DNA from: Verrucomicrobiia bacterium
GTDB taxonomy: Bacteria; Verrucomicrobiota; Verrucomicrobiia; Limisphaerales; CAIMTB01
Reading direction: 5' to 3'
NCBI GenBank assembly: GCA_019634625.1
Contig: JAHCBA010000012.1
Span: 1-64,000 of the forward strand
Length of the DNA stretch: 64,000 nt
Shown: positions 28,666-32,808 of the stretch, piece after piece
How positions within the stretch are numbered: the stretch's first letter is position 1
How the letters are laid out: each line of letters starts with the position of its first letter
Notes under the pieces: generated by a model
Seen by the model: the letters and a program-made list of their open reading frames with translations, nothing else
The model's database searches: none
What the model was told of the DNA's origin: nothing
Program-made: the position numbers and the translations under genes

Positions 28666-28710
28666 GCACGGGATGCCATGGATGTCGTGAACCGCGGACC
28701 CGCTCTCCCC

Positions 28711-30030
28711 ATGAAGCCACTCCTCGTCATCCCGCTCCTCCTCCTCCTCGGCCCCGGGTGCAGCCAGCTCGCGCAGAAGCGCGCGGAACGGGAACTCGAG
28801 ATGGTCGCCCGGCACTGGTGCATGACCCTGCGCGCCAGCCAGATCATCCCCACCTACCCGCTCAACGAGGACCTCCAGCCCGGGGACGTTTTTCTCACCG
28901 AAACCCCGGCGCCCCGCCAGGCCCGCGATTACAACCGGCGCGGCTATCTCGACCTCGAACATCTCCTGGTCCGGCTCAATCCCACCGGGTACCAGTCCTT
29001 CTATGGGGGCGGCTACGGCATCCCTTCGTCCCCCCAGCCACCCCGCCCCTGGCAGTTCCCGGACAGCGCCCGGTGGTCCAACGCCCCGCTGGCCGGTTTC
29101 CCGACCTACACCATCGAGGTCAAACGCGGTGGCGGCTTCAACACCGCCTTCCCCATCTCCAGCGTCCCCGTCTCGCTCGCCCTCCTCTCCAGCGCCCAGG
29201 GCCGGGCAACGGTGCAACTCACCCAGGCCCACACCTTCGGACTCGACCAGGCGTCGCTGGAGACGCCCTTCCGCGACTGGCTCGCCCGTCACCCGGATCT
29301 CATCGAGCAATACGCACGCCCGACCAACCTCCACCAGACGGCCTACCTCCGCCTCGTCACCCGCGTCTTCCTCGTCAAGTCCGTCAATGTCACCGTCACC
29401 GGCGACTCCGCGACGTCCTTCACCGGCTCAGGCGGGGTGCCCAGGGAGGTGGTCCTGTCCAGTCTCCACGACACCAACGCCGTCGCCAATTACACCAACT
29501 CGATCGGCATCCTCGACCGCATGGTGTCCACCCTCCAGGAAGGCGCCCCCGGCGGAACCCTCAAGCTCGCCGGCGCCTCGTCCCGCGCCATCTCCTTCAA
29601 CGAAACCTTCGCCCGGCCCCTGGTGGTGGGCTACATCGCCCAGGATTATCCCATCCTGCCCGACGGACGCCTCGGCCATCCGGTCTCGACCAAGGAAGTC
29701 CTCGAAGGTCGCGCCCGCGATCCCCTGTCCCTCAGTCTCCAACGGCTCGAGGAGGAACAGGACATGGCCGCCCGCGTGGCCGAGGCCTGCATCGCGCGTC
29801 TCGACGCCCTCGGCCCGGATCCCCTCGCCACCGCGATCCGGGACGCGCACCGCTTCAACCTCCTCTCGGCCACCGAACGCGACACCCAGCTCGCCGTCGC
29901 CGCCCAGGATCCTCCCGCCGCCCGTCGTGCCCTCTCCGGCATTCTCCACCGCAAGGCCCGGAGCGGTGACGTCCGGGCCCGTTGTGATCTGACCGACTTC
30001 CTCGAAAGCCTCGCCCTCCTCTCACCCTGA
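28711..30030 (+). CDS. Hypothetical lipoprotein
   Basis: 439 residues from ATG 28711, giving a lipoprotein signal KPLLVIPLLLLLGPGCSQ with the lipobox Cys at residue 17; the ATG at 28678 adds 11 weaker residues. The mature part has no recognised domain; it has beta-rich segments (GGGFNTAFPISSVPVSLALL, FLVKSVNVTVTGDSATSFTG) and ends in an alpha-helical stretch. It is 13 bp from the papain-like protease gene and may be an anchored partner or substrate of it. Function unknown. Confidence 0.78.
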   Translation: MKPLLVIPLLLLLGPGCSQLAQKRAERELEMVARHWCMTLRASQIIPTYPLNEDLQPGDVFLTETPAPRQARDYNRRGYLDLEHLLVRLNPTGYQSFYGGGYGIPSSPQPPRPWQFPDSARWSNAPLAGFPTYTIEVKRGGGFNTAFPISSVPVSLALLSSAQGRATVQLTQAHTFGLDQASLETPFRDWLARHPDLIEQYARPTNLHQTAYLRLVTRVFLVKSVNVTVTGDSATSFTGSGGVPREVVLSSLHDTNAVANYTNSIGILDRMVSTLQEGAPGGTLKLAGASSRAISFNETFARPLVVGYIAQDYPILPDGRLGHPVSTKEVLEGRARDPLSLSLQRLEEEQDMAARVAEACIARLDALGPDPLATAIRDAHRFNLLSATERDTQLAVAAQDPPAARRALSGILHRKARSGDVRARCDLTDFLESLALLSP

Positions 30031-30043
30031 ACCCCGGCCCGCC

Positions 30044-32326
30044 ATGGCCACCACCGACCGACGCGTCTTCCTGTGCCCGGACAATCCGGCCAATCGCCAG
30101 CAGCACAAGGACCTTGAGGACGCCAAACGTGGCGGCTGGCAGGTGACCGACGCCGCCCGGGATCCCCTCGACCCGAACCGGCTCCTGGTCACGCTCTCCT
30201 CCGGCGGAAACGCCGCCGCGCCGGCACCCGGGGAGGTGCCGTCCCTGGCAGGAGCCGCCGCCCGCCCTCGCCGCGCCGCCGCGTCACCCCAGCCCGCGAT
30301 TCGCGCCGGATCCCGGTCCTACCGTCTGGATGCCCGACCCGATCCCGTCGATTTCCGCGACCGCCTCTACGAACCGACCCTGGTCGAGGTCCCCAGCGAA
30401 TGGCCGCTCGAACGTTACCTCTCGGTCTGGAGCGGAAAGGGGGGACGGGCCGCCGCCCAACCCGTCCTCGACCAGGGCGAGGAAGGGGCCTGCACCGGGT
30501 TCGGCCTCGCCGCCGTGGCCCACTATCTGCTCCGCCGCCGCAAGGTCTGGCCCGACCCGACACCCGTCAGCGCCCGCATGTTCTACGAAATGGCCCGGCG
30601 CCACGACGAATGGGAGGGTGAGGACTATTCGGGTTCGAGCGCGCGCGGCGCCATGAAAGGCTGGCACAAGCACGGCGTCTGCCGCGAATCCCTCTGGCCC
30701 TATCAGGCCTCCTCCGCCCTCGGCACCCTCACCCCGGAACGCGCCGTCGATGCCCTGCGACGACCCCTCGGCGCCTACTTTCGTGTCCCGCACCGCGACC
30801 TCGTCGCCATGCACAGTGCCCTCGCCGAAGTGGGCATCCTCTACGCCACCGCCACCGTCCACGAAGGCTGGTCCCATGTCGGCCGCGACGGGCACATCCA
30901 CCCGGATCCCCGCGAGACGGGTGGGCACGCCTTCGTCCTCGTGGGCTACGACGCGGAAGGGTTCTGGCTCCAGAACTCCTGGGGTCCTTCCTGGGGACAT
31001 CTCGGGTTCGCGCACCTCACCTACGACGACTGGCTTGCCCACGGCACCGACGTCTGGGTGGCCCGCCTCGGGGCCCCGATGGTCTCCGCCCGACCGGCCC
31101 GCGCCGGTGGCACCCGGCTCGATCACGCCGGCGCCGCCCTCGATGTCCGCCGCGCCCACCTCCAACGCCACACCGTGGCTCTGGGCACCGACGGATGTCT
31201 CCGCCCCGGCGGCGAGGTGGGCAACCACGAGGGGGACATCCGCCGGCTGTTTGGCCGGCGCGGCGACATCGAGTCCCTCACCCGTTCCTGGTCCCCCAAA
31301 CGCATCCTCCTCTACGCCCACGCCGGACTTGTCCCCGAACCGGATGCGCTCCAGCGCCTCGCCGAGTATCTGCCCGCCCTCCTCGAACACCAGACCTACC
31401 CTCTGGCGTACTTCTGGAAGTCCGACCTCTGGTCCGCCCTCGCCAGTGTCTTGAAGGAGGCCCTCCGGCAACGCCGTCCGGATGGCGCCCTCGACACCGC
31501 CAAGGGCTTCCTGCTCGAACGTCTCGACGACACCCTCGAACTGGTCGCCCGGCCGGGCGGCCGGCGGATCTGGGAGGAGGTCCGGGAAACCGCCCGACTT
31601 GCTGCGGAAAGCGCCACGGGCGGCGCCCGGCTGGTTCTCGCAAGGCTCCTCGAGTTCATCCGGCGCCATCCCGGTGTCGAAGTCCACTTCCTGGCCCACG
31701 GCGCCGGCAGTTTCCTTCTCGGACCGGTCTTTCGGGAGTTCTGCCAGGCCGGGCACCACGCCGCCTCCCTCCAACTCTGGGCCCCCGCCTGCTCCCTCGA
31801 TTTCTTCCGCGCCCACTATGCCGATTCCCTGTCCGCCGGGGCCGCCCGGCGGGTCGCCCTTTACACCCTGAAGGACGACTCCGAACGCGCTGATCACTGC
31901 GCCCACCTCTACCACAAGTCCCTGCTGTACCTCGTCGCCAACGCCCTCGAAGACCGCCCCCGACGTCCCGGTCAGCCCGGCACCCCCCTGCTCGGCCTGG
32001 AAACGTCCCTCCTCGAACAGGCGGCGAGTCTGGGTATCGACTCCGACGGGGTCCGTCGTGAGGACCCGCCTGCCGTCCGGCTTCCATGGGGCCCCGATGC
32101 CTGGTGGATTCGCACCCCCAACAACCTCCCCCCGGGCGACCCTTTCGCCAGCACCGCCCGCCGTCACGGCGACTTCGACGACGACCCGGCCACCGTCCGC
32201 GGCACCCTCGCCCGCATCGTCGGGGCCGACACCGGTATCTCGTCCTCCGGCGAAGCCATCGACTTCCACCCCACCCGTTCCGGTCTCGACGCATGGCGCC
32301 GTGATCTCGATCAGGCCCTCCGGTAA
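30044..32326 (+). CDS. Papain-like (C1) peptidase fused to a degenerate alpha/beta hydrolase domain
   Basis: 760 residues with no clear signal peptide. Residues 1-90 form a variable head. From about 130 to 330 there is a C1 peptidase: Gln144 and catalytic Cys150 in DQGEEGACTGFGLAAVAHYL, His295 in GGHAFVLVGYD, Asn311 in LQNSWGPSWGHLG. From about 420 to 660 there is an alpha/beta-hydrolase-like region (RILLYAHAGLVPE, TYPLAYFWKSDLW) whose nucleophile elbow reads AHGAGS, with Gly553 where Ser is expected. The second half may therefore be a binding domain or a pseudoenzyme. The gene starts 13 bp after a lipoprotein gene, likely the same transcript. Confidence 0.8.
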   Translation: MATTDRRVFLCPDNPANRQQHKDLEDAKRGGWQVTDAARDPLDPNRLLVTLSSGGNAAAPAPGEVPSLAGAAARPRRAAASPQPAIRAGSRSYRLDARPDPVDFRDRLYEPTLVEVPSEWPLERYLSVWSGKGGRAAAQPVLDQGEEGACTGFGLAAVAHYLLRRRKVWPDPTPVSARMFYEMARRHDEWEGEDYSGSSARGAMKGWHKHGVCRESLWPYQASSALGTLTPERAVDALRRPLGAYFRVPHRDLVAMHSALAEVGILYATATVHEGWSHVGRDGHIHPDPRETGGHAFVLVGYDAEGFWLQNSWGPSWGHLGFAHLTYDDWLAHGTDVWVARLGAPMVSARPARAGGTRLDHAGAALDVRRAHLQRHTVALGTDGCLRPGGEVGNHEGDIRRLFGRRGDIESLTRSWSPKRILLYAHAGLVPEPDALQRLAEYLPALLEHQTYPLAYFWKSDLWSALASVLKEALRQRRPDGALDTAKGFLLERLDDTLELVARPGGRRIWEEVRETARLAAESATGGARLVLARLLEFIRRHPGVEVHFLAHGAGSFLLGPVFREFCQAGHHAASLQLWAPACSLDFFRAHYADSLSAGAARRVALYTLKDDSERADHCAHLYHKSLLYLVANALEDRPRRPGQPGTPLLGLETSLLEQAASLGIDSDGVRREDPPAVRLPWGPDAWWIRTPNNLPPGDPFASTARRHGDFDDDPATVRGTLARIVGADTGISSSGEAIDFHPTRSGLDAWRRDLDQALR

Positions 32327-32486: not shown

Positions 32487-32630
32487 AAGCAAGATGCCTG
32501 GCTACTTAATGGGAGGGTTAGTCAACAAATTAAAATTAAGTACCAGACTTTTTGACTTTCCCCATAGTCAACAAACACCCCAAGCAAGATGCCTGGCTAC
32601 TTAATGGCAAGGTTAGTCAACAACTTAAAA
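32487..32630. repeat. Two direct repeats of about 49 bp in an AT-rich gap
   Basis: A unit starting AAGCAAGATGCCTGGCTAC and ending near TTAGTCAACAA(A/C)TTAAAA occurs at 32487-32535 and 32582-32630, 95 bp apart, differing at a few positions. The region up to the chemoreceptor start at 32809 is otherwise featureless. Its AT content contrasts with the genes on both sides. The GTCAAC/GCCTGGC pieces resemble the arrays at 1601 and 53304. Confidence 0.75.
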
Positions 32631-32808
32631 CTTAAAACTAAGAACCTGACGCTTTGATTTGGACTGTTGCGGGAAGGAAGGGAGGGAGCGGCAGGGCATC
32701 GCCCAAGGGTCCGTTCGCCCCTCGCGGGTCAAGTGGTCGCCCCGCCGGACCGATACCCTGCATGGGAGCGATTGGCGCTCACATGGGCGGCCCTTTCCCC
32801 GATGACCT

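Follow-up and report, generated by a model that had tools for sequence, protein, structure and literature searches.

The gene at positions 30044-32326 of the window, by which we mean the whole stretch of 64,000 nucleotides of Verrucomicrobiia DNA that was analysed, is best explained as encoding a predicted intracellular papain-type cysteine protease with a C-terminal α/β-hydrolase domain. Our preferred reading, to which we assign a probability of roughly 0.6, is that of an active protease carrying a non-catalytic hydrolase arm that binds a ligand or a partner; protease activity and binding are both predicted. The changes Ser553Gly and G427A are best explained by a loss of the ester- or amide-hydrolase chemistry of this arm in the lineage of the window, with the fold probably kept.

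Organization of the fusion gene

The features of the locus, in coordinates of the window, are:
28678..30030, + strand: lipoprotein-like gene, 450 aa, candidate partner; its TGA ends 13 bp before the ATG of the fusion gene
30044..32326, + strand: papain-like protease/α/β-hydrolase fusion, open reading frame of 760 aa with ATG start
30332..31087, + strand: papain-like (C1) protease domain, residues 97-348, with Cys150, His295 and Asn311 (PF00112, match to the xylellain structure, triad in 63/63)
31106..32233, + strand: α/β-hydrolase-fold domain, about residues 355-730, nucleophile lost (AF2 model, VIA, Foldseek)
31319..31327, + strand: HGG motif changed to HAG (residues 426-428, G427A; alignment)
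31694..31711, + strand: elbow AHGAGS, residues 551-556, in which Gly553 (codon GGC at 31700-31702) replaces Ser (alignment)
32165..32167, + strand: His708, kept, aligned with the presumed catalytic His (His in 46/46 Ser-bearing rows)

The earlier note had described the C1 triad as intact, which is confirmed here. Peptidase_C1 (PF00112) matches residues 137-326 with an E-value of 2.8e-9 and 37.8 bits, above the curated cut-off of 20.7. Cys150, His295 and Asn311 align with the catalytic positions and, together with Gln144, complete the active-site set of family C1. The Cys, His and Asn positions and that of Gln144 are occupied in the same way in all 63 aligned family members, and the reverse case of a dead protease was found in 0/63 fusions. 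The nearest solved structure to the papain half is xylellain (3ois_A; VIA Z 25.7, rmsd 3.0, 239 aligned), which has the C1 fold and the Cys/His/Asn triad in common with the window protease. Unlike xylellain, the window protein carries an α/β-hydrolase arm at its C-terminus, and its N-terminus is extended by a short piece. Judged from its sequence, the papain half is most likely an enzyme. No signal-peptide-like segment that could serve for export was found in the fusion protein by hydropathy.

Fold and elbow of the hydrolase domain

Because fold searches with the whole model saw mostly the papain half, the C-domain was modelled alone, together with 16 relatives. The AlphaFold2 model of the window C-domain reached a pLDDT of 79.9 and a pTM of 0.83. 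Its VIA matches were mostly α/β hydrolases (Z 11.4-9.5). The best Foldseek match, and the single one below 0.001, was the DDHD domain of the eukaryotic lipid-transfer protein Nir2 (9jyx_B, E 1.2e-4), to which the C-domain is 15% identical with an rmsd of 13.2 over 351 columns. Neither Pfam (E up to 10) nor NCBIfam (E up to 1) gave a match to the C-domain. An α/β-hydrolase had been proposed in the earlier note, with structure prediction as the check; the predicted fold supports this assignment, and on the model the C-domain is an α/β-hydrolase fold.

The elbow had likewise been read correctly as AHGAGS with Gly553 where Ser is expected. The codon is GGC, and in the AlphaFold2 model a strand spans residues 546-552 and a helix begins at 555 (192-198 and 201-214 in domain numbering). 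In each of the 46 Ser-bearing relatives, position 553 is matched in the alignment with the Ser of [GA]-H-S-x-G. With model and alignment in agreement, the elbow is assigned on more than its motif. A nucleophilic Ser, Cys or Asp is not present at the elbow of the window C-domain. A second change, which the earlier note had missed, lies in the oxyanion-type motif: HGG has become HAG through G427A, at a position that is Gly in 46/46 Ser-bearing rows.

Loss of the nucleophile in the family

Homologues were gathered from the order, class and phylum of the window, a genome collection, plasmids and one proteobacterial order. This gave 72 distinct open reading frames with a C-domain match, of which 63 were usable as papain fusions after nine rows had been dropped: the two halves of the frameshifted L005, L159 as a truncated copy of L131, and six rows for want of a papain domain (L060, L067, L068, L069, L115 and L125). 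L062 and L123 have identical C1 sequences. In L005, a relative from genome G151 (L050 8553-10621), the papain-hydrolase reading frame is frameshifted at the elbow, and a protein kinase with WD40 repeats is encoded upstream.

Of the 63 aligned fusions, 46 have Ser at residue 553, 16 have Gly and one has Asp. Due to the non-random sampling, in which one search was queried with a clade A protein and non-Ser rows are probably over-represented, the proportion of 17/63 is not a natural frequency. The three nearest relatives of the window by tree path, L003, L004 and L032, all have Ser at 553, and L003 is 71% identical to the window over the C1 columns. Gly553 as a conserved feature of the family is ruled out by these relatives and by the Ser in 46/63 fusions. 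Because the nearest homologues have Ser, Gly553 is a change in the lineage of the window. The pseudo-hydrolase suggested in the earlier note gains from other clades of the fusion that also lack Ser. Homologues with Ser, which the earlier note would have counted as a refutation, make up 46/63 fusions, the nearest ones included; they do not show the hydrolase domain of the window to be active.

A tree calculated from the C1 columns only places the window within a starred set of 22 rows, and every one of the other 21 carries Ser. The 16 further rows that lack Ser fall into three starred clades apart from the window. Parsimony on this tree gives four changes at 553, and the well-supported branches force at least three. 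Because the C1-only tree sets the window apart from the other non-Ser rows, the hydrolase half appears, as far as can be judged from sequence, to have been disabled repeatedly while the protease was kept.

Clade A comprises seven rows with the elbow DGAG, from rhizobial and Palleronia plasmids and genome G898; the HGG motif is missing in 7/7 rows and the conserved His in 6/7. Clade B has five rows, four with HGFG and one with YDLG. The four rows of clade C carry xGLG and have a longer N-terminal part, in which Trypsin_2 is found in L062, the sole row tested with Pfam. The usual replacement of Ser in the family is Gly. Glycine copes best with the strained geometry at the elbow, which may be why it is the common substitute. 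In L111, L112, L113 and L060 a caspase is the fusion partner of this hydrolase domain, and because all four of these relatives have GHSAG, Ser is the likely ancestral state. In L112 (4255-11510) the hydrolase-caspase gene is flanked by a TPR-repeat gene, which also matches TPR-S, and by a gene with both LCAT-like hydrolase and CHAT domains. The genome of the window yielded no second complete copy of the fusion. It has a second hydrolase-like open reading frame (G000:C49:38291-38503; L178 3506-4864), which the C-domain profile matches weakly (E 0.004) and whose elbow is GGHGLGA, thus with Gly at the nucleophile position.

Constraint on the hydrolase domain and alternative readings

The window protein keeps 55/55 conserved C1 positions and 33/38 conserved C-domain positions, and its two nearest relatives each keep 37 of the latter 38. 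With L032 as outgroup, the C-domain of the window has accumulated more changes than that of L003 (54:21, p 1.8e-4) or L004 (61:24, p 7e-5), and the C1 counts are even (16:18 and 13:20, respectively). With L063m as outgroup, the C-domain excess is gone (33:27 for L003 and 38:29 for L004, not significant). With L055 it amounts to 44:28 against L003 (p 0.08) and 61:23 against L004. The contrast between C1 and C-domain rates is not significant (p 0.49 for L003 with L063m, p 0.47 for L004 with L055). Because the rate excess changes with the outgroup, relaxed constraint on the C-domain, as read from these sequence comparisons, is supported but not firm.

Such a pattern could also arise by early decay, in which the species acquired the gene, did not need it, and Ser553Gly is the first visible damage. 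The changes are concentrated in one domain, no copy of the fusion was found in the four other genomes of the genus, and L005 is frameshifted at the same place. However, the complete set of conserved C1 positions and a C1 rate equal to that of the relatives argue against decay. The reading frame is open over 760 codons with coding-type base composition throughout (third-position GC of 0.85 in C1 and 0.83 in the C-domain), and three other clades kept related domains after the loss of Ser. We therefore regard early decay as unlikely.

A further alternative is that the C-domain is still an enzyme. Some members of the α/β-hydrolase fold use a different nucleophile or catalyze a non-hydrolytic reaction, and the window keeps His708 and the acidic residues past the seventh strand, so that a residual or altered chemistry is conceivable. 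It would have to proceed with an altered oxyanion motif and without a Ser or Cys at residues 551-555, Ser556 being the next. In clade A, the loss of HGG in every row and of His in all but one also argues against a hidden enzymatic function, which we consider improbable. Slightly less probable still is a sequencing or assembly error at codon 553 that hides a Ser and an active hydrolase: GGC is a single A-to-G change from AGC and only one assembly is available, but HGG is altered as well and 5/38 conserved C-domain positions differ.

The upstream lipoprotein-like gene

The distance of 13 bp between the lipoprotein-like gene and the fusion gene, as given in the earlier note, is correct. The product has a hydrophobic start that ends in Cys. 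Relatives were found in 12/292 further genomes of the order, the match in G136 being weak. We examined 12 loci, namely that of the window and those in 11 of these genomes, leaving out the weak hit in G136. In 3/12 loci (window, G170 and G289) the lipoprotein gene is located upstream of protease or lipase genes. A profile search found no papain-hydrolase fusion in the 11 fetched stretches. A conserved position of the lipoprotein beside the fusion was rejected, as the related fusion loci contain no convincing homologue (best other hit E 0.39).

In G170 (L191 3213-6844) a caspase-domain gene with a hydrolase-like stretch lies 29 bp downstream of the lipoprotein homologue. The hydrolase part of this protein, with AHSLGS, is a reading by eye; Pfam finds only the caspase, and the C-domain profile does not match. 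The N-terminal pieces of the window protein and of the G170 caspase protein align with a score of 49, which none of 5000 shuffles reached; this likeness is suggestive only. With phmmer, the N-terminal piece retrieved nothing beyond the window's own copies, and the nearest relative L003 has no clear likeness to it. In G289 (L197 2-4831, - strand) the lipoprotein homologue is located upstream of patatin, Trypco1 and trypsin genes. Because the homologues in G170 and G289 precede caspase/hydrolase-like or patatin/trypsin genes, a functional link of the lipoprotein to protease-plus-hydrolase modules is plausible. The earlier note's suggestion that the lipoprotein is a membrane anchor fits poorly: since the protease lacks an export signal by hydropathy, a role as simple anchor is less likely.

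Gene neighbourhoods and known systems

A GDSL-hydrolase-caspase gene adjoins the fusion in 6/7 loci of clade A, as found with Pfam in L059, L120, L122 and L169 and by sequence similarity in L121 and L126; the seventh locus, L061, is ended by the edge of the record. All five loci of clade B have a trypsin-Endonuclease_NS gene next to the fusion, Pfam-tested in two. Ser-bearing rows can have similar neighbours, as L119 has a GDSL-caspase gene close by and L138 a GDSL-like gene, and thus the link to GDSL and caspase genes is not special to dead domains. The flanks differ in length among the loci, and absences were therefore left uncounted.

The neighbours in the window look by eye like pyrH, frr and a chemoreceptor gene, with no caspase, trypsin or nuclease gene among the neighbours read. 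Because the window itself lacks such neighbours, a setting in a conflict system is borrowed from its relatives. In tblastn searches against the fetched loci, the trypsin-nuclease protein of clade B had no match in the window loci L001 and L002, with flanks of about 1.0-1.4 kb, and neither the fusion nor the lipoprotein was hit in a PADLOC search. A 426-aa open reading frame with a caspase domain elsewhere in the genome of the window (C37) was set aside, as no fusion stands alongside. Downstream of the fusion gene, at 32488-32640, the stretch gcaagatgcctggctacttaatgg...agtcaacaa is present twice, as seen by eye.

Published systems offer some points of comparison. In the parts of Kaur et al. 2020 (PMC7159879) considered here, the caspases of VMAP systems are described as always having a neighbouring α/β-hydrolase gene, the core systems with trypsin and NucA as occurring mostly in alphaproteobacteria, and many peptidase domains at effector positions as inactive. 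According to these parts, the VMAP and NucA-trypsin systems (the latter being System 3) resemble the papain-hydrolase family in combining a cysteine protease with an α/β hydrolase and in keeping inactive enzyme domains, and the trypsin-NucA pairs resemble the gene beside clade B. They differ in that VMAP systems have a caspase and a neighbouring hydrolase gene, whereas the papain domain of the window is fused to the hydrolase, and no MoxR, vWA, STAND or EAD partner was noticed in the window. In the main text on LypABC of Caulobacter (PMC13236601), LypC is described as combining trypsin and endonuclease, and cell lysis depends on its peptidase. By description, the gene beside clade B has the same two parts; LypABC differs in that the word hydrolase is absent from that main text. 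By analogy of their neighbour genes, clades A and B with dead hydrolase domains would thus resemble published conflict systems, and the window does not. In titles and abstract openings of the literature, with subscription papers mostly outside this scope, we found no description of a papain-hydrolase fusion or of its Ser loss.

Implications

For the window protein, we favor an active protease with a binding arm. The papain half would be the working output, and the former hydrolase pocket may bind a ligand or partner, as in hydrolase-fold receptors; the lipids or peptides proposed in the earlier note are hypothetical candidates. When occupied, the arm might gate or switch the protease, or direct and aim it. 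Neuroligin is a pseudoenzyme of the hydrolase fold in which the nucleophilic Ser is lost and the fold is used for binding; it differs from the window protein in being eukaryotic and extracellular and in having no protease attached. The lipoprotein encoded upstream is probably co-expressed with the fusion as its partner. Proteins that combine a cysteine protease, either papain or caspase, with a hydrolase form a broader group to which the gene belongs; in some relatives they are encoded next to caspase, trypsin and nuclease genes of the kind found in bacterial conflict and cell-death systems.

More tentatively, and with clearly less confidence, we propose a widespread bacterial family of two-headed proteins, papain plus hydrolase, whose hydrolase head became a pseudoenzyme time and again while the protease was never lost. 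In two clades a fixed partner gene, for a GDSL-hydrolase-caspase or a trypsin-nuclease, might supply or replace the lost function, and a cell-death or defence system driven by the protease might use the dead domain as its receptor or for docking. The window would then be a recent, separate instance with a lipoprotein as partner.

As the same loss recurs, the finding goes beyond one odd residue. The family offers a natural series from live through recently disabled to long-dead hydrolase domains, always on a conserved protease, and therefore the roles of the hydrolase arm as effector, sensor or regulator can be tested against each other. Should these proteins take part in bacterial conflict systems, their dead domains would be the bacterial equivalents of receptors with a hydrolase fold.
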